Shown piece after piece: positions 327 through 31,674 of a DNA stretch of 33,036 nt. The position numbers and the translations under genes were made by a program. The stretch spans positions 1 to 33,036 of the forward strand of contig NZ_BJVK01000025.1 in the NCBI RefSeq assembly GCF_007989105.1, written 5' to 3'. The stretch comes from Lentilactobacillus kefiri (GTDB lineage Bacteria > Bacillota > Bacilli > Lactobacillales > Lactobacillaceae). Position 1 is the stretch's first letter, and each line of letters opens with the position of its first letter. The notes under the pieces are model-generated. The model searched no databases. It saw nothing but the letters and a program-made list of their open reading frames with translations, and was not told the DNA's origin.

Positions 327-578
327 AAATAAGTTGGACTGTTTCTCCCTGTTATGAACTTTTATATTCATGGAGTAGCAGTTCATTTCTTATTAAATAG
401 GCGGACGATGGAAAATTAAGCTTTGCAATTTATTGTGTGTTTTTGAGTATCCCAGATTAATTTAATCATTGTTGTGATTTTAAGCAATCTTGATCTCCTC
501 TAATTTAAGCATATTTCGTGACAAGTTGGCTGATGAGGAGTTTGCTAAAAGGCTATATTTAAATGGGAGGTTTACGAT
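327..578. other. Intergenic gap before the MazG operon
   Basis: This 252-base AT-rich gap has no convincing gene. It must hold the end of the Ltp transcript and the promoter of the operon starting at 579. A TATATT at 554-559 could be a -10 box, but no matching -35 is seen. No clear terminator hairpin is visible. Confidence 0.4.
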
Positions 579-890
579 ATGGAATATGATCAATTGATTA
601 AAGAATTAACTGATTTTCGAAACAGTCGTGGCTGGAATCAATACCATACATTGCCAGCATTAGCACGTGCAGTGGGTATCGAATCTGGCGAACTAAATGA
701 ATTGTTTCTATGGGATATGGAAAATGATAAAGAGTTTTCTGATAAACAAAAGCATGACATGGAACTTGAACTGGCAGACATACTGACATATTGCTATTAT
801 ATGTGTGATAAGTTGGGTGTTCAGCCTAATGACATTGTCCAAGAGAAACTGGATATAAATAAGAAACGTCACTGGAAATTTGATAAGTAA
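579..890 (+). CDS. MazG-like nucleotide pyrophosphohydrolase
   Basis: A 103-residue all-alpha protein of the MazG/RS21-C6 (dCTPase-like) superfamily, which hydrolyses (d)NTPs to the monophosphate and pyrophosphate. The metal-binding signature is visible: glutamates 35, 38 and 41 in E-S-G-E-L-N-E, then E64-L-A-D67 in the second helix, fitting ExxE(12-28)ExxD. A G-W-x-Q-Y-H-T element near residues 18-23 is typical of the stand-alone short forms. The start is supported by GGGAGG at 565-570, eight bases before ATG. The next gene follows after only 18 bases, so the two are probably co-transcribed. Housekeeping nucleotide sanitation is possible, but location in front of a GIY-YIG/DUF2075 protein and an Abi-alpha protein suggests a nucleotide-depleting or regulatory role in a defence operon (inference). 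Confidence 0.85.
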   Translation: MEYDQLIKELTDFRNSRGWNQYHTLPALARAVGIESGELNELFLWDMENDKEFSDKQKHDMELELADILTYCYYMCDKLGVQPNDIVQEKLDINKKRHWKFDK

Positions 891-908
891 GGTTGAAAGG
901 TGTTTACG

Positions 909-2681
909 ATGAGTGATATTGGTTACCCCATTATTGAAAAAATTAAATATGACTCCCAAGCCACTGACAATCTCACAGATGTAATCGATGGGGATAAGCT
1001 TAAACGCAGATTACTGATGGAGTATCCGACGGTTTATATTATTTATTCACCGATTAAATCTGGTGGTTATAAAGTTTATGTTGGTGAGACCAATGACATT
1101 GAACGTCGGACTGAGCAGCATTTGAATGAGGACCCTCGGGTAAGGGATGATTGGCGTGAGCTTTCGAAATCCAAGGATGCACAAATGTTTGTGATTGGTC
1201 ATGATCATTTCAATAAATCGTTGACGCTTGATATTGAAAATCAGATGATGCTTTTTATGCTTGGCGTTCCCAGTGTGAAAAGACTCAATAATCGCCGCGA
1301 AAATGAACAAAATGAATATTATACATCTAACGAAAAAGATAAAATCTTTTCTCGAATTTGGCGTAAGCTTCGCGGCTTTGACAAGAATTTATTTCCTGTT
1401 GAAAGTATTATACGAGACTCTGCGATTTTTAAGGCGTCACCATTTCATAACTTAACAACTGAACAAAAGAATGCAAAAGATATTATTGTTGATAAGGTAA
1501 TTGATGCATTGCTTTCAAAGAAAAAGGGCCAACTGATTTTGGTTGAAGGGGAAGCCGGTTCTGGGAAAACAGTTCTTTTGAGTACGATCTTTTATTTAAT
1601 CAGTACTTTGAAAGACGACGGTAGCCCACTTCGACAAGGATTTGATCACTTAAAGAACTATGTTTTGGTTAACCATGATGAGCAGTTGAAGGTATATGAA
1701 GATATTATCGATAAGTTGAATTTGAACTATCAATATGATGATGTTGTAAGTAAGCCCACTCATTTTATTAACTCGCACGATGAAAGTGATCCTGCCGATG
1801 TTGTGCTGGTTGATGAAGCTCACTTGCTGTGGACTCAAGGTAAACAAGCATATCGAGGTCAGAATCAGCTTGATGACATTTTGAAGCGCGCCAGAATTAC
1901 GGTTGCAATTTTTGACCGGAACCAAATTTTGAAGACTGAGGAATATTTGGAGCCCCAGCAAATTCAAAATATGGAAGAAAAGGCAATGAAGCAGAATAAT
2001 CTGATTATGTTGAGTAATCAGCTACGCATTGACGCCAACAAAGAAACAATTGAATGGATTAGAGATATTACTGATAAAAAAATAATCAAAAAAATCCCGC
2101 AAGACAGTAAATATGACTTGAGGATATTTGATGATGCCAAAGAAATGTATGAAGCAATACGAGATAAGGCTTTGGGAGATCAAAAGGCTGGGCTATCCAG
2201 GATTCTTGCTACTTTTGATTGGAAATATAACGGTAAGAGGAAACCAGATAATGGCGGTTATTGGATGGTAACTGCCGGAGATTTGTCGTTACCATGGAAC
2301 CTGCAGCTTAAACCCAAGGGTAGCCGTTCACTGAAAAAGCTGGCTTGGGCTGAACAGGAACAAACACTTGATGAAGTTGGTTCAACATACACTATTCAAG
2401 GCTTTGATTTGAACTATTGCGGTGTCATTATTGGTCCATCTGTTAAGTACCGCAATGGACACGTTGTTTTTGATGCAGATGCCAGTGAGAATACCAATGC
2501 TATTCGAAACCGTACATTACATGATGGCAAAAAGCGGAAAGTTGCCAGTCAGTTGCTTCCTAATGAGTTGAATGTTTTGCTTACTCGTGGGGTTCATGGG
2601 CTATATATTTATGCGGTTGATGATGAGTTGCGCAAAGCGATGTTGAAAGCTGATGAAGATTGCAATAGATTACATAGGTGA
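909..2681 (+). CDS. GIY-YIG nuclease fused to DUF2075 helicase-like ATPase
   Basis: Frame opens at GTG 900, but the ATG at 909 sits eight bases after GAAAGG (895-900), the same spacing and flank (TTTACGAT) as the gene before it, so I take 909 (590 aa). An N-terminal GIY-YIG domain is visible at about residues 40-115: V-Y-I-I-Y, then Y-V-G-E-T-N, then the conserved Arg in E-R-R-T-E-Q-H and a Glu in D-I-E-N-Q. The DUF2075 P-loop ATPase/helicase follows, with Walker A G-E-A-G-S-G-K-T at about 214-221 and Walker B V-L-V-D-E-A-H at about 299-305. The family's C-terminal block N-V-L-L-T-R-G, then I-Y, is near residue 560. A nuclease domain on a superfamily-1-like motor suggests a DNA-cleaving effector or sensor. 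Second gene of the three-gene operon 579-3659. Domain calls are firm; the biological role is inferred. Confidence 0.88.
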   Translation: MSDIGYPIIEKIKYDSQATDNLTDVIDGDKLKRRLLMEYPTVYIIYSPIKSGGYKVYVGETNDIERRTEQHLNEDPRVRDDWRELSKSKDAQMFVIGHDHFNKSLTLDIENQMMLFMLGVPSVKRLNNRRENEQNEYYTSNEKDKIFSRIWRKLRGFDKNLFPVESIIRDSAIFKASPFHNLTTEQKNAKDIIVDKVIDALLSKKKGQLILVEGEAGSGKTVLLSTIFYLISTLKDDGSPLRQGFDHLKNYVLVNHDEQLKVYEDIIDKLNLNYQYDDVVSKPTHFINSHDESDPADVVLVDEAHLLWTQGKQAYRGQNQLDDILKRARITVAIFDRNQILKTEEYLEPQQIQNMEEKAMKQNNLIMLSNQLRIDANKETIEWIRDITDKKIIKKIPQDSKYDLRIFDDAKEMYEAIRDKALGDQKAGLSRILATFDWKYNGKRKPDNGGYWMVTAGDLSLPWNLQLKPKGSRSLKKLAWAEQEQTLDEVGSTYTIQGFDLNYCGVIIGPSVKYRNGHVVFDADASENTNAIRNRTLHDGKKRKVASQLLPNELNVLLTRGVHGLYIYAVDDELRKAMLKADEDCNRLHR

Positions 2682-2702
2682 TTTGTAATAGAGGGTGTGA
2701 AT

Positions 2703-3659
2703 ATGAATTCCATTGATCCAAATGATTTATTGAAATTTGGTACTGCTGTTATTGCTGCAAAAGCGCTTAAGGAACCACTAGATACTTTAAACGACCTTTG
2801 GTTTAACATCTTTGGGTACAGAGTTAAGAAAGCACGAATCAAACATGAATTTTATCTAAAAGAATACAAGAATGAATTAGAGGCTAATTTACAAGCGATA
2901 CCAAGTGATAATATTCAAAACCCAAAACTGTCAATTCTAGGGCCGGCTTTGGATGCATCTCAGTACTATATTGATGAGCCTGAGCTTAGAAAGATGTTTG
3001 CAAAAGTTGCAGCGGGGGCATTTGACAATTCTAAAAATAATAAGATACATCAGTCGTTCGTTCAATTTCTGACGGAGATGTCTTCGAACGATGCTAATTT
3101 ACTTAAGTATATTTCGGGAACTCGAGAACATGCTGTACAGGGCATCACAATGAACGTAGGATCACAAATTCCTATTATGGAAATGTCATATACAGACGGA
3201 GCAATGGAAAATGGACACCGGTCGAATATCTTACCCTCTGTTGTGACCGAGGTGTTATCAAGTCCTGGGGTTAAATTCTCATATAGAGATGGACAAGTTA
3301 GTATGGATACCTTGTTAAGGATGAACCTAATAGAAGTAGATTCTTATAGTCTTGTAAAATGGGCAGGGAAACCGCTTGACGAGGTGTTTAGGGTTAATGA
3401 CGCTATTGATGATTTTCAAAAGGATCATAATCAAGCGATTGACGATTTAAAAAAACAGTTACAACCAGCGGAGTCAAAGCAAATTGATGAGAACACAGTT
3501 GAAATTGAAGTTCAAATACCAACGGATACTCCAAATAACTTAAAAGATGCACTTGGCCACCTGCAGAATATGCGATTGAATAAAACATTCAGAACCGTAT
3601 CTTTAACAGCTATTGGTAAAAACTTCTGTGAGATAGTTTTTGGTCAGAATTTCAATTAG
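2703..3659 (+). CDS. Abi-alpha / DUF4393 family protein
   Basis: I take ATG 2703 (318 aa) rather than GTG 2697, because GAGGG at 2691-2695 lies seven bases before it. The N-terminus (K-F-G-T-A-V-I-A-A-K-A-L-K-E-P, then a W-F-x-x-F-G segment and a basic helical stretch) and the following G-P-A-L-D-A-S-Q-Y-Y-I-D-E-P-E-L-R-x-M-F-A block match the Abi-alpha (DUF4393) family, whose Pfam name comes from an abortive-infection annotation. The motif after it, F-V-Q-F-L-T-E-M-S-x-x-D-A, is also typical. The biochemical activity of the family is unknown to me. It is the last gene of the operon, 21 bases behind the DUF2075 gene and followed by a terminator at 3702-3727. Family assignment is from recalled motif similarity. 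Confidence 0.75.
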   Translation: MNSIDPNDLLKFGTAVIAAKALKEPLDTLNDLWFNIFGYRVKKARIKHEFYLKEYKNELEANLQAIPSDNIQNPKLSILGPALDASQYYIDEPELRKMFAKVAAGAFDNSKNNKIHQSFVQFLTEMSSNDANLLKYISGTREHAVQGITMNVGSQIPIMEMSYTDGAMENGHRSNILPSVVTEVLSSPGVKFSYRDGQVSMDTLLRMNLIEVDSYSLVKWAGKPLDEVFRVNDAIDDFQKDHNQAIDDLKKQLQPAESKQIDENTVEIEVQIPTDTPNNLKDALGHLQNMRLNKTFRTVSLTAIGKNFCEIVFGQNFN

Positions 3660-3701
3660 CGAAATATACTAAACAATTAAGGCATAAATTCAGCAAATCA
3701 G

Positions 3702-3727
3702 AGCATCCTTTTGAGGATGCTTTTTTA
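3702..3727 (+). terminator. Rho-independent terminator of the MazG/DUF2075/Abi-alpha operon
   Basis: A perfect 7-bp stem (AGCATCC with GGATGCT, loop TTTTGA) is followed by a run of six T. It closes the three-gene operon 42 bases after the Abi-alpha stop codon. Confidence 0.85.
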
Positions 3728-3750
3728 ATTAAAAAATAAATGCAAAACAC

Positions 3751-3802
3751 AAGACATTACACCCCATATACGGTATTATATCAATATAAGTACAAAATAC
3801 TT
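3751..3802 (+). promoter_or_regulatory. Candidate promoter and operator of the ADP-ribosylglycohydrolase operon
   Basis: AAGACA (3751-3756), 17-base spacer, TATTAT (3774-3779) is a plausible sigma-A promoter. Just downstream lies an inverted repeat AAGTA-N5-TACTT (3788-3802), placed where a repressor would block initiation. No regulator gene is adjacent, so the operator idea is an inference. Confidence 0.4.
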
Positions 3803-3836
3803 TTATTTTATCTAGTAACAGAAAGAAGGAATACTC

Positions 3837-4832
3837 ATGCGCAGTAAAGATAAAGTTCTGGGCGTGCTTTATGGTCAGGCCATTGGTGATGCAATGGGAA
3901 TGCCATCGGAACTGTGGCCGGTGGAGAAGATCCGAGATCAATTTCATGGCAAGATCACCACTTTTCTTGATGGGCCTGATAATAATGATATAGCTAAGAA
4001 CTTCAAAAAAGGCCAGTATACCGACGACACCAATCAGGCACTTGCAATACTGGATGGACTAATTGAAAATAATTGGCGGCCTGATTCAAAGATTTTGGTA
4101 AAGCATATCATGGCTTGGGCAGAGTCTGTTGGTGCCTGGGAGAACAATATTCTTGGACCGAGCAGCAAAGCAGCGTTAACAGCTCTTAAAGATGGTAAGG
4201 ATCCACGTCCCATCACGGATCAGGCACTAACTAATGGTGCTGGAATGCGGATTTCACCAATTGGTGCATTATTTAATCCAGAAGAATTGGAGCGATTGGT
4301 TCACATGGTCTTTGAGATAACTAAGATTACTCATTCTAGTGACGTTTCAATCAGTGGGGCCTCCATGATAGCTGGAGCCGTAACAGCTGCCATGGCAGAT
4401 CAAAATTGGGATGACGTGATTGATTTTGCGCTACGAGCTAATGATGTTGGGTTCAAGTTTGGCGCACCAACATGGGCAGCCAAGACACGTGACCGCCTTG
4501 AATTGGGCATCAACATTGCTCAAAAAGACAAAGGTTCAGATGAAAAGTTCAGTCAACACATTTACAACTTGATCGGTACGGGAACAATGATTTCTGAGAG
4601 TATTCCGGCAGCTGTTTCAATAGCATATTATTGTCGAGATGTGCAAAAATGTGCGTTGATGTGTGCCAACCTTGGTGGTGATACAGACACAATTGGTGCA
4701 ATGGCAACCGCAATATGTGGTGCAAAAAATGGTAAAGTATCGATCCCATCAGAATGGATCAAACTGGTTGATCAGCAAAATCCTCAGCATGATTTCAATG
4801 AGTATGCGGATAAAATTTTACAATTCAAATAA
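3837..4832 (+). CDS. ADP-ribosylglycohydrolase (ARH/DraG) family protein
   Basis: A 331-residue member of the ADP-ribosylglycohydrolase fold family, which removes N- or O-linked ADP-ribose or hydrolyses related N-glycosides with a binuclear Mg site. The metal motifs are present at both ends: Y61-T-D-D-T, G-A-x-x-G-D-A-M near residues 14-21, and G-G-D282-T-D284-T near the C-terminus. AGAAAGAAGGA a few bases upstream is the ribosome binding site. It is the first gene of an operon with an NCS1 permease (20 bases on) and a PfkB kinase. E. coli yegU (same family) is likewise grouped with a nucleoside transporter (yegT) and a PfkB kinase (yegV), so the substrate is more likely an imported nucleoside-like compound than ADP-ribosylated protein (inference). 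No DraT-like transferase is nearby. Confidence 0.9.
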   Translation: MRSKDKVLGVLYGQAIGDAMGMPSELWPVEKIRDQFHGKITTFLDGPDNNDIAKNFKKGQYTDDTNQALAILDGLIENNWRPDSKILVKHIMAWAESVGAWENNILGPSSKAALTALKDGKDPRPITDQALTNGAGMRISPIGALFNPEELERLVHMVFEITKITHSSDVSISGASMIAGAVTAAMADQNWDDVIDFALRANDVGFKFGAPTWAAKTRDRLELGINIAQKDKGSDEKFSQHIYNLIGTGTMISESIPAAVSIAYYCRDVQKCALMCANLGGDTDTIGAMATAICGAKNGKVSIPSEWIKLVDQQNPQHDFNEYADKILQFK

Positions 4833-7338: not shown

Positions 7339-8475
7339 ATGAGAAATAAGAAGATACTTCGTTATGCAATAATTGGGGTTGCATCTGCCTGTGTTGCCAT
7401 AGCGACATTTGATAATGGGGATTCAAAGGTTATTACCTACCCAAAAAGTGTAACGGTTCATGCTGCCGTGAAACAAACTGTCACTGATAATTATGCTCGC
7501 GATGATATTCAATCCATATTCAGTGCAATCCAAAATTCGTCAGATCCTGTAAAAACGGATAGAGTACTAACTGACGAATATAATAAGTTGTCGAAAAATT
7601 TGACAACACTTTACGCTGCACCTATTACATATCAACCAGGTTACAATGCGGATTATGGCCCTGCACATGCGATGACTATTGCAGATGTTCTTCATGAAAT
7701 GAGTTTTTCGCCTCAAAATATTGATCAGAACTATGATTCATATTTGGAGGCTGGGGGTGAAAATCTTTCAAATGATGGCAAGTCAGCAGGTATGGGGGAC
7801 GCTTCATTAGATAGAAATGGAGCCGAAATTATATATAATCGATTTATCAACCGCCTTTCACCAGCAAATCAGTTAAACGTGAAAACGGTTTGGGAACATG
7901 TTCAAAAAGATGACACATATGAGTCATTGGAGAACGATCTTTCTTCGTTATACCAGGCAATTGCGGATGGAATTAGTGCCTGGGGTGAAAACGTAGTAGT
8001 TAAAACTAACGCCGACTCTGATTCACTTTATACCATTAAGAATGATAAAAAGGCTCATAATCAATACATTGCTCTATATATTCCACAAGAAAAAATTAAG
8101 CAAGTCATTGGTCGTGCTTACAAGCTTTACAAAAAGAATAGGAAAGGAATTATCAAATCCAATATCTCGGTTTATATATTTTACGTTTTGTTTGCAACGT
8201 ATAATTCAGAGAAAGGCCAAGACTTGCAGAAAGATACAACTGACGGAATAAGTGCTGCACATTATTATGATTACGAGTATGTTAAATCTTCTGGTGGGAA
8301 GACTACTTATAACCAGGCAATGCGGTTTCTTAAAAGGGCTTATTCCTATCGTGGCAGACAAAATATTGCCATCAAGGGATATTATTTTAACCATAAGCAT
8401 CCAACTTTGAAGCTTAGCAAATGGGACGGATATATAACGGATAATAATTTGAAACTGAAATATAATCCTTTTTAA
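7339..8475 (+). CDS. Secreted protein of unknown function
   Basis: 378 residues. The N-terminus has a basic start (R-N-K-K), a hydrophobic core (A-I-I-G-V-A-S-A-C-V-A-I-A) and a likely signal peptidase site after V-H-A-A near residue 35, so the product should be exported. The mature part is hydrophilic and rich in Asn, Asp, Lys and Tyr, has no second membrane segment, no LPxTG and no lipobox. I do not recognise a domain. GGAGGGG at 7328-7334 sets the start. A 6-bp inverted repeat (GATTTT-AGG-AAAATC, 7295-7309) lies in the leader. It stands alone between the kinase operon and the secreted phosphatase gene and could serve the cell surface. Confidence 0.7.
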   Translation: MRNKKILRYAIIGVASACVAIATFDNGDSKVITYPKSVTVHAAVKQTVTDNYARDDIQSIFSAIQNSSDPVKTDRVLTDEYNKLSKNLTTLYAAPITYQPGYNADYGPAHAMTIADVLHEMSFSPQNIDQNYDSYLEAGGENLSNDGKSAGMGDASLDRNGAEIIYNRFINRLSPANQLNVKTVWEHVQKDDTYESLENDLSSLYQAIADGISAWGENVVVKTNADSDSLYTIKNDKKAHNQYIALYIPQEKIKQVIGRAYKLYKKNRKGIIKSNISVYIFYVLFATYNSEKGQDLQKDTTDGISAAHYYDYEYVKSSGGKTTYNQAMRFLKRAYSYRGRQNIAIKGYYFNHKHPTLKLSKWDGYITDNNLKLKYNPF

Positions 8476-8596: not shown

Positions 8597-8659
8597 CACC
8601 CAATGTATCCTGAGCATGTAGGAATCTTGCATTCCACAGGCCATATACATTGGGAGGGT
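8594..8659 (+). promoter_or_regulatory. Inverted repeat/hairpin that would mask the ribosome binding site of the PAP2 phosphatase
   Basis: Positions 8594-8608 pair with 8645-8659 in 14 of 15 positions (single A/A mismatch at 8598/8655). The right arm contains the whole Shine-Dalgarno sequence GGAGGG (8653-8658). Inside, CCTG/CAGG (8609-8612, 8637-8640) and GGAAT/ATTCC (8621-8625, 8631-8635) continue the fold. If transcription starts before 8594, the leader RNA would hide the ribosome binding site; if it starts later, only the DNA is symmetric. Confidence 0.6.
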
Positions 8660-8664
8660 ATTTT

Positions 8665-10440
8665 ATGTTTTTTACAAAACATTCACAATTGATGAAGCTG
8701 ATGGCAGGTTCCTTTACCGTCATTTTGACTGGTTCTGCATTGCTCACTAGTCAAGAATCCGTCCAGGCAAAATCACAGGCATCTACCAAGCTTGAGAAGT
8801 TGCTTGCACCGCACAAAGCCAGTTACGGCTACTATGTTGATCAATATCTCTTAAATCGAAAAGAAAATGATTCGCCGGATACTAATCCATCGACGGCATT
8901 ATTTAATAATACATTTGCTAAGTTCTATAAGGGAGATGGCACTAAGCTAAACCCCAAGATTCTTCAAGAAAATATTGATAAATCAGTTAAAATTTCTGAA
9001 AATGTCACACCAGCTGAAGAACTCCGGTCATACATCACTGATCGGCAGGACAGTCCTTATGATGTGATTCGAGGATTGGGGCCATACGCTGAGGCTTTCA
9101 TTGAGAACTCGAACGCCAAGACTCTGTTCTATAATTTACCGACTAGCGAATTGCCAGCTGACACCAAGGATGATCCAGGATCAGGCATTACTTGGGCTGA
9201 TGAAAAATCCAAGTTGGGGTCAATGGTTGACTTGGTGGATACGACTGCACTTTGGTATTATTCCTCATCTGGAAACGCCAAGCAGTTCTACAAATACATT
9301 CGGCCCTTCCGGCAAGATCCGCGTGTGCAGGTCAATCCGTATTTGAAAGCGGCTTTTGATGCCACACCTCAGAACGATTATGATTTTCCAAGCGGTCACA
9401 CAACCCAAGCCTGGGAGACCGGTTTATCGATGGCCTACGCCTTTCCAGAGCGTTTCCAACAACTGGTTACCCGATCATCTGAAGTCGGCTATGATCGAAT
9501 CCTGGTGGGTCGACATTCACCTCTGGCAGTTATGGGTGGCCGAATCTTGGGAACAGCGGTTGCTGCATCTGTTTTGAATAATTCGCAGAATAAATCAATT
9601 GCTAATAAAGCTTATCAGAATGCCCAAAGTGTCTTATTGCATTCAAAGGTTACCAAATCAAAGGATGATTACAAGAACTACCAGACTAATTTGAAGAACT
9701 TTGAATACCGCATGACATATGGTTACAAGCCAATCTCTTCCACCAAGGAAAAGATGCGCGTACCAAAGGGTGCCGAAGTTCTCATTCAAACCCGTTTTCC
9801 ATATTTGAACGCTACCCAACGTCGAGAAGTTCTATACACAACCGGATTTAAGTCAGGCTACCCAATGGGCCAAGATACTGAGGGCTGGGGCCGATTGGAC
9901 TTGTTTAAAGCAGGTGCTGGATTTGGCAGCTTGCTGGGAAACACAACGGTTAATATGAATGCAAAACGAGGGGGATTCGATGCTAGTGATACTTGGCGCA
10001 ATAATATTTCTGGTAGTGGTGCGCTGATTAAGAAGGGAACTGGAAGTTTGACTTTGGAGGGCGCCAACTCTTATAAAGGTGGAACGTTTATCAAGGACGG
10101 CACGATTATCGCTGCCAATAAAGATGCCCTGGGATCTGGCAATCTTAAGTTGAGTGATGGAACTTTGAAGCTATCTACCAAAGCTGTGAGTGTGAAGGGC
10201 AATTATACTCAAGGCAAAAAGGGCACAGTCAGGGTTAATGGTAATAGTCGAATTGTTGCCAAAGGGACTGGCCGTCTTGGTGGTAAATTAGTGATTAACT
10301 TGAAGTCTAAACCGTCTAAGAAACATGTGCTGTTTAAGTTTAGCTCACGACATGGTAAGTTTGCTCACGTTACAGTTTCTGGTGGGTATAAAGGCTGGCA
10401 TGTGGCTTATACGAAGAATGGTGTTGAGTTGGTAAAATAA
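8665..10440 (+). CDS. Secreted PAP2-family acid phosphatase with C-terminal autotransporter-type beta-strand repeat
   Basis: I take ATG 8665 (591 aa), six bases after GGAGGG; the frame's TTG at 8650 precedes that site. A signal peptide ends near V-Q-A-K (about residue 36). The class A/PAP2 phosphatase motifs are K206-x6-R213-P, P242-S-G-H245-T and R-x5-H284. The last motif normally reads H-S-P-L-D; here it is H284-S-P-L-A288, so the Asp that assists the nucleophilic His is replaced by Ala. After about residue 420 comes a glycine-rich beta region with T-W-R-N-N-I-S-G-S-G and L-x-L-x-G-A-N-S-Y-K-G-G-T, matching the autotransporter-associated beta-strand repeat seen in larger phosphatases of this type. 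The expected role is dephosphorylation of organic phosphates outside the cell; the upstream PhoP-like box agrees. Activity is uncertain because of the Ala substitution. Confidence 0.85.
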   Translation: MFFTKHSQLMKLMAGSFTVILTGSALLTSQESVQAKSQASTKLEKLLAPHKASYGYYVDQYLLNRKENDSPDTNPSTALFNNTFAKFYKGDGTKLNPKILQENIDKSVKISENVTPAEELRSYITDRQDSPYDVIRGLGPYAEAFIENSNAKTLFYNLPTSELPADTKDDPGSGITWADEKSKLGSMVDLVDTTALWYYSSSGNAKQFYKYIRPFRQDPRVQVNPYLKAAFDATPQNDYDFPSGHTTQAWETGLSMAYAFPERFQQLVTRSSEVGYDRILVGRHSPLAVMGGRILGTAVAASVLNNSQNKSIANKAYQNAQSVLLHSKVTKSKDDYKNYQTNLKNFEYRMTYGYKPISSTKEKMRVPKGAEVLIQTRFPYLNATQRREVLYTTGFKSGYPMGQDTEGWGRLDLFKAGAGFGSLLGNTTVNMNAKRGGFDASDTWRNNISGSGALIKKGTGSLTLEGANSYKGGTFIKDGTIIAANKDALGSGNLKLSDGTLKLSTKAVSVKGNYTQGKKGTVRVNGNSRIVAKGTGRLGGKLVINLKSKPSKKHVLFKFSSRHGKFAHVTVSGGYKGWHVAYTKNGVELVK

Positions 10441-10517: not shown

Positions 10518-12272
10518 TTAAAGTTGAATGATTTGGTTGATTAATTTTTGACCTCGCTCATTGATGGTTGTAGGATTCCATTCAGGATAACTGGTAAGAT
10601 CTTTTGTTAACATCACAAGAGAGTCTTTGTATCCATTGTTTCTATTGGGTTCTCCAGATTTTTTCATCTGAAAATTCGAATTTTTCAGTGATGAATTATC
10701 TGGCCCATACCAAAGCGTCAAATTTCCTAACTGCCATAGAGAATTTTTGAAATTTATGTCATCCGCTGACGTACAACCCCAGTCTGAATAATCTTTAGGA
10801 ACTTGTGGCATTATATGATCCAAGTGTATTTTGGAGTTGGTGGGAAGTAGGTCTCCACGTTCCTTACTATTGTTGAAAGTGTTCTCGATGATACGTAGCA
10901 GTGCTTTGGCAAACTTTTCGTCTTTACTGAAGTCAAAGCTTTCCATTGCACTTTGTATTTTTTTATCGGTTAATCGTTCAGTAATCGCATGCTCGTTCAA
11001 ATAGTCTATCGAATCACCAATATCCCGACTCTGAACAATTTTTGATGCCTCTTGCGCGAATAACTTTTCTAACCAATTGGTTCCCCCACCAACAATTTTG
11101 TTTCGTAGAAGAATCCTTTGTATCATTGAAAGAGCGGTACTAAATTCCTTTTGGGTTGCTTCAATCTTGAATAGTGCGAGCACCATTGGATAATAAGCGT
11201 GAAAGTTAAGGGCGTTGAGTTCGTTAATGATGGTGACTGATTTATTTCCAATCTGGTCTGTAAATGAATCATCAATTGGATTTACACCATTGAGCTCTGC
11301 AAATTCATCGGATAGTTTTCCGATATCATATGAAAAAGTTAATATTCCACTAACATCATTTTTAAATTCATCAAGGACTTTCCGATATAAGTTTCTTTTA
11401 GTTGCAAATTGATGTTGAGAATTCCAAAGATACCGGATGTAATCAGTTAGGTCTTCTGTTTGGAGATTTTGTTGGGCTAACTGCCAACTATCTTTTAGTC
11501 TGGTTCCTTCAGTTTGTGTACGAGCCCGACCAAAAAAGTTACTCTTAATTAAGTCCGCAGAAGTTAGATCTTTTCCACGGGCATTTAATGTTTGAAATAT
11601 TTGAAATGCGTTTACTTCATCTGATGTCAATATCTCTATTACAAAAAAGTGATTGAGTAAAGTATTGTACAAACGCATAACGGTGTCCTCAAGTCGTTCA
11701 TTACTATTTTGAGAGCTTTTTATAGATTCAAGAATTTGGTTATACGCATGTGCCATGATATTTTGAGTCGGCTTTGTGCCCTTTTTTCTAGTGTCCCTTT
11801 TTTGTTTTACGTCTTCAACTTTTTTAAAGTCTTTAGGTGTTTGAATTTCTTCTCGGAAAAAGTTACTGCCTTCTCCTTTTTGTAAAAGCCGTAAACTGCT
11901 GTCATCCGTGGTATCGCCTATATAATCCTCAATAATTTTTACAACTGTTCGGCTATTTTTGTCTACTGGCCCCTTGGAGATTGCTGCCAGTAGATCACGA
12001 ACAACTGCTAAAAAGATGGTAATTGTTGTCAGTCTTTGTTGTCCATCAATTATTTGTTCGCGAGGATTATTATCGTTCTTATCAACAGCAACTATGGGGC
12101 CAAAAAAGTATTCAGATGTTTCTTCACGATGGCTTTCGTCCTCGAGATCGTTAATAAAATCTCCAACTTGGTCTTGCTCCCACGAGTAGCCACGTTGATA
12201 GTCAGGAATTGTTGCTCTTAAATCCTCTAAATAATTTTTAATGTTTTTTCTTGAAGGATAGAATTTTACCAT
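10518..12272 (-). CDS. GmrSD-like DUF262/DUF1524 protein (modified-DNA restriction family)
   Basis: 584 residues with both halves of the GmrSD architecture in one chain. The N-terminal DUF262 (ParB/Srx-like NTPase) shows I-P-x-Y-Q-R-G-Y-S-W at 22-31 and the hallmark D76-G-Q-Q-R80. The C-terminal DUF1524 nuclease has the H-x-x-P signature L-D485-H486-I-M-P489 and a downstream L-G-N-L-T-L element. Family members include GmrSD (cleaves glucosylated hydroxymethylcytosine DNA), BrxU and SspE; they restrict phage DNA according to its modification. No methyltransferase, BREX or phosphorothioation genes are in the window, so it would act alone as a type IV-like enzyme. ATG is preceded by GGGGAGA at good spacing. 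It is divergent from the 5'-nucleotidase gene and AT-rich relative to it. Domain assignment is strong; the target is unknown. Confidence 0.9.
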   Translation of the reverse strand: MVKFYPSRKNIKNYLEDLRATIPDYQRGYSWEQDQVGDFINDLEDESHREETSEYFFGPIVAVDKNDNNPREQIIDGQQRLTTITIFLAVVRDLLAAISKGPVDKNSRTVVKIIEDYIGDTTDDSSLRLLQKGEGSNFFREEIQTPKDFKKVEDVKQKRDTRKKGTKPTQNIMAHAYNQILESIKSSQNSNERLEDTVMRLYNTLLNHFFVIEILTSDEVNAFQIFQTLNARGKDLTSADLIKSNFFGRARTQTEGTRLKDSWQLAQQNLQTEDLTDYIRYLWNSQHQFATKRNLYRKVLDEFKNDVSGILTFSYDIGKLSDEFAELNGVNPIDDSFTDQIGNKSVTIINELNALNFHAYYPMVLALFKIEATQKEFSTALSMIQRILLRNKIVGGGTNWLEKLFAQEASKIVQSRDIGDSIDYLNEHAITERLTDKKIQSAMESFDFSKDEKFAKALLRIIENTFNNSKERGDLLPTNSKIHLDHIMPQVPKDYSDWGCTSADDINFKNSLWQLGNLTLWYGPDNSSLKNSNFQMKKSGEPNRNNGYKDSLVMLTKDLTSYPEWNPTTINERGQKLINQIIQL

Positions 12273-19030: not shown

Positions 19031-19570
19031 TTATTTTGGTAAATGGCTAACAGCATAATTTGCCTGCGCTTGTGTAAACTTATCGCCTGCGCTCGATGTT
19101 AATTGATCCCTGATGGCAGCAGGTGACATATTCATGTCCTTTTGATATGTCTTAGCAGATTCCAATGCGTTCTTATTCCAGTTAACATCTTTAAGATGAG
19201 TGACTGCATAGTAGGCAGCTTTAGTAGAGAACTGGTCCCCTGCTTTTGACCTCAACTGTTCATATATTGCACGTTTCGACAAATTCATACTATTTGCATA
19301 GGTTTCAGCAGATTCCAGAGCATTTTTATATGCAATTGGAACTTTTTGAGTAGCTTTTGTACTGCTGGATGATTGGGAAGATTCTGATGACTGTGTGTTT
19401 GCAGATTTAGAAGACGTTGTCTTTTCGGTTTTCGTACTTGAATTATTTGATGAGGATGAGTTATCAGAGTTACCCCCAGCAATTCCACTTACTACAAACA
19501 CAGCGAATACGATGATTAACCAGACCCACCAAATCTTGTACCACGGTTTTGATATTTTTCTATTATCCAT
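19031..19570 (-). CDS. Membrane-anchored Ltp-repeat protein
   Basis: 179 residues: a short basic N-terminus, one hydrophobic segment W-W-V-W-L-I-I-V-F-A-V-F-V-V-S-G (about residues 14-30), a Ser/Thr/Lys-rich linker (about 35-75), then two Ltp repeats with a 51-residue period. Each repeat has N-A-L-E-S-A-x-T-Y, S-x-x-A-I-x-x-Q-L, a G-D-x-F loop and Y-A-V-x-H-L. It has an uncleaved anchor instead of a lipobox. The protein is a paralogue of the partial gene at 1-326. The related phage protein Ltp_TP-J34 blocks DNA entry of superinfecting phage, so a role at the cell envelope in phage exclusion is possible but unproven. ATG is preceded by AGGAGGG. Confidence 0.85.
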   Translation of the reverse strand: MDNRKISKPWYKIWWVWLIIVFAVFVVSGIAGGNSDNSSSSNNSSTKTEKTTSSKSANTQSSESSQSSSSTKATQKVPIAYKNALESAETYANSMNLSKRAIYEQLRSKAGDQFSTKAAYYAVTHLKDVNWNKNALESAKTYQKDMNMSPAAIRDQLTSSAGDKFTQAQANYAVSHLPK

Positions 19571-30327: not shown

Positions 30328-31674
30328 TTATACCACAGTGTTGGCCTGTGCCTCTTGATTGTTTTCAATGGCTAGCGTTTCTCTATACTCCTCTGCATCT
30401 GGATTCTCATGGAAATCAACCGTTACATCTTGATATTTTTTGAGTTCTTCTTCAATCTCTTTGATTGATATTTTGAAATACTCTTTACGATTATTGACTT
30501 TGTTTACTCTTTTATTTGCAAACCGTTCATGTAACTTGGTTTCCAGAGCATATGCATCTTGACTGAAAATCAAAGCATGTACGTCAAATTTAAATGGAAC
30601 GGATGCACTACTTAGTTCACTAATCCGATCCAAAGGTTCAAGACGTCTAGTTACTCCAATTTTTACAATACCTTTTCCAAAGGATCCAATGTTGGAAATA
30701 ATGTACACATATCCGGCAGTGGCATTTGCTTCACGATAGTCGATATCACCCTTTTTATCATGTAGCGAGTCTAGTTCATTTCGTAATTTTTCGATTTCGA
30801 ATTTTAGCCCATCTTTGTCACTCGCTTCAAGCTCCATTCGTTTTTGTAATTCCTCGATAGCTTGGTCGTAGTGCTGGATTTCCTTATCCACCTTTTTTCG
30901 CTCTTGTTTGATTTCTTGCTGGAGCCTTTTATCTTCACGTTCTTTTTCACGTTGTTCTCGTAATAAATCCTTTTCTTCCTGTTTCTTTTGGGCATAACTA
31001 AATGCCAAGTCTAATTCGTCATATTTTAATTGCAGGTAATTTGGTAGCATTTGAACATCTACGACTTCGTACATTTTATTGTGCTGAATAAACGATTTTT
31101 CAATTCGAGTAACGATGCGTTCATAATTAGAATAGGTTACCTTCTTAATTGCATCTGTACACTCATTGTTGAAACTTCTAAAAATGGCTTTAATATTATT
31201 ACGTGTCATTTTTTTGCCTTCGGAAAGCTTTCCGTTAATGGTCCACTGAGGGTTAAATTGAACTGCCGAACGGCTTTTAATCAATTGCTTTTGTTGATCG
31301 CGTATTTCAGCGAGCTTTTCTTTATAACCTGATGACGTAGCGAATTCATAGTGTGGACTATAAAGACCATAACCACTCATTTCTTTACTTACCTCAAGAT
31401 CCCCAACTTCTGCTTTGAGATCTTCGATCGTTTTTTCCTTTAGAGTTACTTCTGTTTCTAATTGAGATAATTTTGGTGTTAATTGTTCAATTTTATTTGA
31501 CTTATCTTCGATTATTTTTTCCAACTCAACAGGCTTCATTTGTTGAACCGATAACTTTATGTCAGCTTCCTTCTGTAAATGCTTATTTTGTTCTGTAAGC
31601 TTAGCGTTACTATTCCTCAGTTCTTGAATAGTATTTTTAAATTGGTTTACCTTAAAAAAATCTGATATTCCCAT
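30328..31674 (-). CDS. DUF4041 coiled-coil protein with C-terminal GIY-YIG (T5orf172) domain
   Basis: 448 residues. The first 95 form an amphipathic coiled coil. A DUF4041-like part follows at about 100-200 (Y-G-L-Y-S-P-H-Y-E-F, then W-T-I-N-G), and a second highly charged coiled coil at about 225-315. The C-terminal T5orf172/MUG113-type GIY-YIG domain has V-Y-I-I-S at 323-327, V-K-I-G-V-T at 337-342, R343/R344 and the catalytic Glu E378 in A-L-E-T-K-L-H. DUF4041/GIY-YIG proteins occur in phage, plasmid and defence-rich loci; their activity is not known to me. TGAGGGG precedes ATG. It stands alone, ahead of and divergent from the alcohol dehydrogenase gene, and shares no operon with the other GIY-YIG gene at 909. 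Domain call firm, role inferred. Confidence 0.87.
   Translation of the reverse strand: MGISDFFKVNQFKNTIQELRNSNAKLTEQNKHLQKEADIKLSVQQMKPVELEKIIEDKSNKIEQLTPKLSQLETEVTLKEKTIEDLKAEVGDLEVSKEMSGYGLYSPHYEFATSSGYKEKLAEIRDQQKQLIKSRSAVQFNPQWTINGKLSEGKKMTRNNIKAIFRSFNNECTDAIKKVTYSNYERIVTRIEKSFIQHNKMYEVVDVQMLPNYLQLKYDELDLAFSYAQKKQEEKDLLREQREKEREDKRLQQEIKQERKKVDKEIQHYDQAIEELQKRMELEASDKDGLKFEIEKLRNELDSLHDKKGDIDYREANATAGYVYIISNIGSFGKGIVKIGVTRRLEPLDRISELSSASVPFKFDVHALIFSQDAYALETKLHERFANKRVNKVNNRKEYFKISIKEIEEELKKYQDVTVDFHENPDAEEYRETLAIENNQEAQANTVV

Follow-up and report, generated by a model that had tools for sequence, protein, structure and literature searches.

A contig of Lentilactobacillus kefiri carries two adjacent genes, one encoding a MazG-like nucleoside triphosphate (NTP) pyrophosphohydrolase and the other a GIY-YIG nuclease domain fused to a Schlafen-group-3 (SLFN) helicase, and we find with high confidence that these genes form a recurring two-gene unit whose adjacency exceeds chance. 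The window analyzed here is that whole contig (33,036 bases), one of the 118 that make up a 2.49 Mb genome. We consider, with moderate confidence, that the pair functions in defense against phages or foreign DNA. The explanation that we favor, to which we give about an even chance of being correct, is that positions 579 to 2681 encode a horizontally moving anti-invader module, in which a restriction-like nuclease–helicase would have a frequent but nonobligatory hydrolase partner acting on substrates of the deoxycytidine triphosphate (dCTP) type. An earlier, sequence-only reading of this DNA had added a third gene, encoding an Abi_alpha-family protein, to form one antiphage operon; judged from its distribution, that gene is a separate candidate defense gene that merely adjoins the pair here.

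Recurrence of the MazG and helicase fusion genes

The helicase domain of the fusion belongs to PF09848, formerly DUF2075, for which the current Pfam name is SLFN-g3_helicase. Searching 299 genomes (the Bacilli sample) with Pfam gave 57 strong PF09848 matches (E 6.1e-39 or better) in genomes other than that of the window, and all of them, in 56 regions, were examined. Neighbors within 500 bp were counted for GIY-positive open reading frames (ORFs) of at least 480 amino acids (aa), of which there were 102; broken or short copies (such as L012, L096, L175, and L180) and L095, L097, and L098, which had no profile match, were left out of these counts. MazG was found within 500 bp of 26 of the 31 full-length fusions of the Bacilli sample, and these 26 span 12 genera, with MazG downstream in 22, upstream in 3, and divergent in 1, and with frequent 4-base ORF overlaps. 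Among 251 Lactobacillaceae genomes, MazG lay within the same distance of 33 of 59 fusions (17 upstream, 10 downstream, and 6 divergent), and a coordinate count placed it there in 37 of the 64 genomes that have a whole or partial fusion. Partial or broken copies are included among the 64 (G012, G328, G445, G451, G461, and G496), and the fusion places listed are a minimum, with some candidates per genome scored. As a control, MazG was within 500 bp of none of 20 short paralogs without GIY-YIG. In a sample of 24 genomes of the genus, 9 carry a complete or partial fusion, and MazG adjoins it in 6 (the window, L009, L010, L011, L012, and L017), and does not adjoin it in 2 (L013 and L019); the contig of the last (L021) is too short to tell. 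The fusion was rare in a phylum-wide draw, with 3 of 299 genomes matched (E 1e-60), one of them the window's own; MazG adjoins both of the others (L091 in G051, from the same order, and L205 in G564, from the same phylum).

On a tree built with FastTree from the 102 fusions, at least 17 changes in MazG presence are required, compared with at least 23 in 30 label shuffles, along with at least eight changes in arrangement among the 67 fusions with MazG. The repeated changes in presence and arrangement indicate that the MazG–fusion link is not merely common descent and that its loss, re-formation, or rearrangement has occurred repeatedly, and the higher count under label shuffling indicates that inheritance is also at work.

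Seen from the hydrolase side, 37 of the 53 strong MazG-like genes in the 251 Lactobacillaceae genomes adjoin a fusion, and 39 of the 51 genomes with such a gene carry one (Fisher p 1.7e-18), but the MazG profile was derived solely from genes adjoining such helicases, so both shares are biased upward. Other observations also weigh against a tight partnership. The remaining 16 of the 53 genes are not beside a fusion, and 11 of these are without a recognized partner within three genes, as judged against a small reference panel, so this type of MazG is not confined to such partners. Two of the other five lie in NUDIX-SauUSI-MazG clusters (L182 and L183, from genomes G461 and G468, each of which carries a fusion elsewhere), one lies by a helicase of a second class (L186), and two have transposase-like genes around them (L192 and L189, the latter also near a helicase fragment). 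From the fusion side, no MazG was present within 500 bp of 26 of the 59 Lactobacillaceae and 5 of the 31 Bacilli fusions; L100, one of these five, does have an ORF 254 bp away with weak MazG similarity (E 6.5e-4), and L053, L057, and L058 are all from one genus. MazG as an obligatory subunit was rejected on the basis of the 26 Lactobacillaceae fusions. The association of MazG with GIY-YIG/DUF2075, part of what the sequence-only reading had proposed, is recurrent, with MazG a frequent rather than an obligatory neighbor.

The second helicase class just mentioned has an N terminus of about 260 residues with no Pfam name, and MazG is within 500 bp of 8 of 18 of its members. A Priestia plasmid protein of this class, with MazG adjoining, has a PD-(D/E)XK-like motif that was recognized by eye and was not called by a tool. 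Separately, a family of 433-aa proteins recurs next to fusions that lack MazG, encoded one or two genes upstream in three genomes of a single genus (L134, L136, and L138).

Predicted activities of the two proteins

Fusion residues are numbered here from GTG 900, the start of the longest reading frame. The fusion matches PF09848 with 319 bits against a curated cutoff of 24 (residues 211 to 574) and PF01541 with 24.3 bits, a narrow pass over the cutoff of 22.6 (residues 44 to 78). GIY-YIG residues Y46, Y60, G62, R70, and H74 are present in 101 of the 102 full-length relatives and E113 in all of them, as are G222, K223, D305, E306, and H308 of the helicase ATPase motifs; judged by these positions, the GIY-YIG residues and ATPase motifs of the window fusion are intact. 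Although its helicase domain is by Pfam name that of Schlafen group 3, the fusion differs from Schlafen proteins in having GIY-YIG at its N terminus instead of the Schlafen core RNase domain, which is not one of the 16 Pfam families matched at E of 0.1 or less. The AlphaFold model is poor (mean predicted local distance difference test score [pLDDT] 57, second half mostly below 50), and sequence matches in the PDB are limited to ATPase cores such as ORC1. In the explanation that we favor, the fusion protein would load on invading (or stalled or modified) nucleic acid and degrade it in an ATP-dependent, restriction-like reaction.

The smaller protein matches the MazG-like family PF12643 with 43.8 bits against a curated cutoff of 27, and its best profile matches in the PDB are the pyrophosphatase 4qgp (9.4e-31) and chains of RS21-C6/DCTPP1 (8e-17 to 2e-15). 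Acidic residues E35, E38, E64, and D67 are invariant in all 85 aligned rows (79 distinct sequences). DCTPP1 prefers dCTP and 5-methyl-dCTP, and docking placed His38, Trp47, Glu63, Glu66, Trp73, Glu95, Asp98, and Tyr102 in its pocket, where Trp47 and Trp73 contact the 5-methyl group (PMC4491611). In our alignment, DCTPP1 W47, E63, E66, W73, E95, D98, and Y102 correspond to W19, E35, E38, W45, E64, D67, and Y71 of the window protein, so that seven of the eight listed pocket residues are kept, including both tryptophans that contact the 5-methyl group. Across the 85 rows, W19 is present in 85 and W45 and Y71 each in 84. Retention of these residues makes a dCTP-type substrate likely and 5-modified dCTP plausible, and our confidence in the exact substrate assignment is low. 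Counting against close equivalence, His38 is not conserved and is replaced by Leu10, which stands one position before the aligned stretch, and unlike DCTPP1 the bacterial protein, whose activity is predicted, is encoded as the partner gene of a nuclease–helicase. The predicted MazG model (78.6) gave no Foldseek matches at E 0.001, with RS21-C6 in complex with dm5CTP (2oig) ranked third at a nonsignificant E of 1.7, and the assignment therefore rests on the sequence matches. In the explanation that we favor, MazG would hydrolyze dCTP-type nucleotides, most probably 5-modified dCTP, and modified nucleotides that are phage-made or freed by DNA degradation would thereby be kept out of new DNA.

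Nucleotide depletion is an accepted defense strategy, exemplified by dCTP deaminases and dGTPases, and MazG could instead be a starvation effector that hydrolyzes canonical dCTP (or all deoxynucleoside triphosphates) upon infection to stop phage replication, with the nuclease–helicase sensing or attacking phage DNA. DCTPP1 does hydrolyze dCTP itself (PMC4491611), dCTP deaminase is named among defense systems (PMC10121019), and MazG is on a list of predicted, nonvalidated defense domains (PMC13092281, section 8). We nevertheless consider starvation rather unlikely: the absence of MazG beside so many fusions would be unusual for an effector, and the same type of MazG is also found by SauUSI-like enzymes, SauUSI being active as a single polypeptide (PMC3874153).

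Genomic context and modification-dependent restriction

At a threshold of 1e-10, 140 proteins encoded around 20 MazG-linked fusions matched 151 PADLOC models, versus 8 for 140 control proteins taken at a distance of half a contig on the same contigs. The 20 loci were hand-picked, mostly on long contigs, from the 26 MazG-linked Bacilli loci (L070, L072, L084, L086, L090, and L094 were left out). Among the 25 models listed are DndH, Jet, ThsA, Pbe, and type I and type IV enzymes, each matched by one to three proteins. Three points temper this contrast: it counts models and not proteins, and one SauUSI-like protein can match several of those listed; the frequent models mad3, mad8, AriA, and PbeA also match controls; and transporters and regulators are the commonest neighbor families among the top 25 of 174 Pfam families. 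Proteins hand-picked from near the pair in three Lentilactobacillus relatives include DISARM DrmA and DrmB (L010), a GmrSD-type enzyme (L009), and Cas1e with a type II enzyme match (L012). The sequence-only reading had looked to recurrence and to enrichment near defense genes as marks of a defense system, and the pair shows both.

The fusion is also mobile. Two of five plasmid fusions examined, from L. plantarum and Ligilactobacillus salivarius, are accompanied by MazG; the other three are not (L004, L006, and L007), which counts against MazG being obligatory. The fusion profile found one relative in viral contigs, a prophage-like IMG/VR contig (L181) with a 14-bp overlap between the ORFs of fusion and MazG and without Abi_alpha; the two ORFs are flanked by endolysin-like and integrase-like genes, named from reading their translations. 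Phage records gave three distant matches. With the defense-rich surroundings, the plasmid and prophage-like locations make the antiphage role that the sequence-only reading had proposed likely for MazG and the fusion, but not for the three genes together.

A phage-unrelated role in DNA repair or nucleotide-pool cleaning, in which the pair resolves damaged or modified DNA, has to be weighed against this. A short PF09848-type helicase (approximately 400 aa), whose match to the fusion excludes the GIY-YIG part, is encoded in each of the 24 genomes of the genus sample, which points to a core function of the helicase family. Short SLFN-g3 helicases without GIY-YIG are found at G000:C9:42420-43490 (L002) and at L022-L036 and L038-L041. 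Housekeeping would also fit the 11 MazG genes without a recognized partner and the cleaning of 5-hydroxy-dCTP (5-OH-dCTP) by mycobacterial MazG (PMC3855555). However, it is the core paralog that has no MazG neighbor, whereas the fusion has a patchy distribution (64 of 251 Lactobacillaceae genomes) and is sometimes broken (L012, L013, and L096), carried on plasmids and a prophage-like contig, and surrounded by defense genes, and we regard a housekeeping role as improbable.

The neighborhoods include a second kind of nucleotide hydrolase together with a second kind of restriction enzyme. Of 104 fusions, 8 have a gene for a NUDIX protein no more than four genes away, 8 have one for a SauUSI-like type IV enzyme at that distance, and 7 have both. 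The L003 copy of the NUDIX protein matches PADLOC PDC-S07, and in the PDB the best match of the NUDIX neighbor is a MutT protein, with MutT2 and CTP pyrophosphohydrolases also matched, so that cleaning of other damaged nucleotides would fit equally well. Enzymes named as 5-methyl-dCTP hydrolases are E. coli Orf135, mycobacterial MutT2, and RS21-C6/DCTPP1 (PMC10742078), and MutT homologs are reported to adjoin SauUSI homologs (PMC7641849). Like the window pair, SauUSI has a nuclease and a helicase in one protein beside an NTP pyrophosphohydrolase, and its NUDIX/MazG clusters sometimes merge with the MazG–fusion pair. It differs in having a phospholipase D (PLD)-type nuclease and a helicase of another family and in its demonstrated dependence on 5-methylcytosine (m5C) and 5-hydroxymethylcytosine (hm5C), DNA containing either of which it cuts (PMC3874153), whereas the target of the fusion is putative. 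In the clusters at L182 and L183, which lack a GIY-YIG fusion, MazG is directly beside the type IV restriction enzyme.

Of 25 Lactobacillaceae genomes that carry both a fusion and a SauUSI-like gene, 5 have them no more than 1 kb apart, against approximately 0.06 expected, but this expectation assumes uniform placement in a 2.2 Mb genome and defense genes cluster anyway; at the genome level the fusion and SauUSI-like genes show no significant association in Lactobacillaceae (p 0.12). Nor are m5C methyltransferases depleted where the fusion is present (16 of 64 genomes versus 47 of 187 without it, p 1.0); of the 16 genomes with both, 3 have a methyltransferase at most 1 kb from the fusion and 7 have one at most 10 kb away. 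With this distribution, the nuclease is unlikely to be directed at m5C in general, and such a target was rejected as unsupported.

A generalization that we put forward tentatively, and to which we assign a low probability, is that modification-sensitive nuclease–helicases are paired with dedicated 5-modified-dCTP hydrolases, sanitation being the anti-autoimmunity arm of restriction. The nucleases would be the GIY-YIG–Schlafen fusion, the second Schlafen-group-3 class, and SauUSI, and the hydrolases would be of the MazG/DCTPP1 or MutT/NUDIX type; modified nucleotides, whether phage-made or released from degraded phage DNA, would be barred from host DNA, and self-restriction would be avoided.

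The Abi_alpha gene, neighboring genes, and significance

The third gene was correctly assigned to its family by the sequence-only reading, as were the other two, with all Pfam matches above curated cutoffs (that of PF01541 narrowly; PF14337 reaches 112.7 bits against 29). The co-directional layout with gaps of 18 and 21 bases also holds, given the ATG starts that were picked from the sequence for the fusion and Abi_alpha (909, giving 590 aa, and 2703; the longest Abi_alpha reading frame begins at GTG 2697). The terminator placed behind the third gene corresponds to a hairpin followed by T with a folding energy of −13.1 kcal/mol (z −2.99, 200 shuffles); a simple terminator scan of 330 to 3900 is weak by itself, with three candidate sites versus 2.0 expected, the remaining two being inside the helicase gene and one of them (2584 to 2600) close to the gene end. 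A single transcript for all three genes is possible, in which case Abi_alpha would add an independent abortive-infection layer. Coordinates are collected in Table 1.

Table 1. Positions and supporting matches of features in the 33,036-base window
Feature	Position	Strand	Support
MazG-like all-alpha NTP pyrophosphohydrolase (predicted), DCTPP1/RS21-C6-like, 103 aa	579..890	+	PF12643, PDB profile matches
GIY-YIG nuclease fused to Schlafen-group-3 (ex-DUF2075) helicase (predicted), 590 aa	909..2681	+	PF01541, PF09848
Abi_alpha-family protein, ~318 aa	2703..3659	+	PF14337 112.7 bits, PADLOC PDC-S47 1.5e-25
Intrinsic-terminator-like hairpin 3′ of Abi_alpha	3700..3723	+	Folding energy versus shuffles, T run behind
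Ltp-type surface-protein fragment, frame open at contig edge	18..326	+	PF07553 1.2e-34; phrog_4980 superinfection exclusion 1.3e-33
Single-chain GmrSD-type modification-dependent restriction enzyme (predicted), outside the pair	10518..12272	−	PF03235, PF07510, PADLOC HEC-06 3.6e-105

The short gaps, common strand, and single terminator candidate are what would be expected if the three genes formed one defense system, as the sequence-only reading proposed. Abi_alpha is present in 17 of the 251 Lactobacillaceae genomes by the Pfam model, and 6 of these carry the fusion, which is no enrichment (Fisher p 0.39). Of the 64 fusion genomes, 2 have the gene within 10 kb of the fusion, and the window alone has it within 1 kb, directly behind. 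In the second case (L160, G349) it is 1.5 kb from the fusion with an opposite-strand gene between, and a Cas9-like protein, named by reading its sequence, follows. Proximity in 2 of the 6 genomes that have both genes, versus 0.06 expected under the same assumption of uniform placement, could be taken in favor of a joint system, but this fits clustering of defense genes rather than a three-part machine. Single-sequence phmmer found Abi_alpha in no others of the 205 loci, window copies apart, a search that very distant relatives could escape, and an Abi_alpha query of viral contigs returned no relatives.

DNA comparison also leaves Abi_alpha outside the shared stretch. The closest named relatives found, Lentilactobacillus sunkii and L. 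otakiensis, share 94% helicase identity with the window. In blastn alignments with seven relatives, similarity to the window stops at 2623 to 2653, at the helicase end, in all seven, and begins at 562 to 580, close to the start of MazG, in four (L009, L010, L011, and L017), at 1025 inside the helicase gene in two (L013 and L019), and at position 1 in L012, which shares the upstream Ltp-type gene as a 93% identical copy preceding its own pair. None of the seven has an Abi_alpha counterpart at the pair. A block of ADP-ribosylglycohydrolase, permease, and kinase genes (window approximately 3750 onward) is present in six relatives, again with no DNA match to Abi_alpha. In L. sunkii, two ORFs past the pair, there is a PAP2 gene that is found at 8650 in the window (91.6% identity), by which the locus looks like a variable chromosomal place that receives inserted blocks.

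A member of the Abi_alpha family, Abi-alpha EF2833 (DUF4393/PF14337), is a single 272-aa gene of prophage 6 of Enterococcus faecalis V583 that works alone, causing premature lysis of phage-infected E. faecalis and abortive infection (PMC6356687). The window gene is in the same Pfam family and resembles PADLOC PDC-S47 but is longer, and no phage structural families were reported among the 26 window ORFs in a Pfam scan. Locus scans, co-occurrence across genomes, and DNA boundaries together led us to reject the three-gene system; the three genes are rarely together, and we consider it very improbable that they act as one system.

Several other genes of the window and its relatives deserve mention. 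A second gene with Ltp-type repeats (PF07553) is at 19031 to 19570. The GmrSD-type gene is 7.8 kb from the pair in the window, and in relative L009 a GmrSD-type enzyme 29% identical to that of the window is upstream of the pair with one small ORF between. A DUF4041 and T5orf172/MUG113 protein on the minus strand (30328 to 31674) is possibly a further mobile or phage-related gene, and an ORF of 378 aa at 7339 to 8475 has no Pfam matches at 0.1. The PAP2 phosphatase (8650 to 10440) has a C-terminal passenger-associated-transport repeat (PATR) in a Gram-positive species; this repeat is familiar mainly from Gram-negative autotransporters.

Both components of the pair have been placed on defense-domain lists: MazG as noted above, and PF09848 among the Abi Pfams of an E. 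coli defense survey (PMC10121019). The Abi proteins of that survey share the Pfam family of the window helicase, but its main text contains no mention of MazG or GIY-YIG. Among the open-access literature matches listed, in the portions of those articles available, the pairing of MazG with GIY-YIG/DUF2075 is neither described nor named. The results would give a testable function to a widespread two-gene module of the Bacilli and a partner to the MazG proteins whose defensive role has been predicted without validation (PMC13092281). The trio originally proposed is corrected, and Abi-alpha is to be treated apart from the pair. If it is true that the hydrolase shields the host, the pair would suggest how modification-dependent restriction spares its own cell after degradation of phage DNA.

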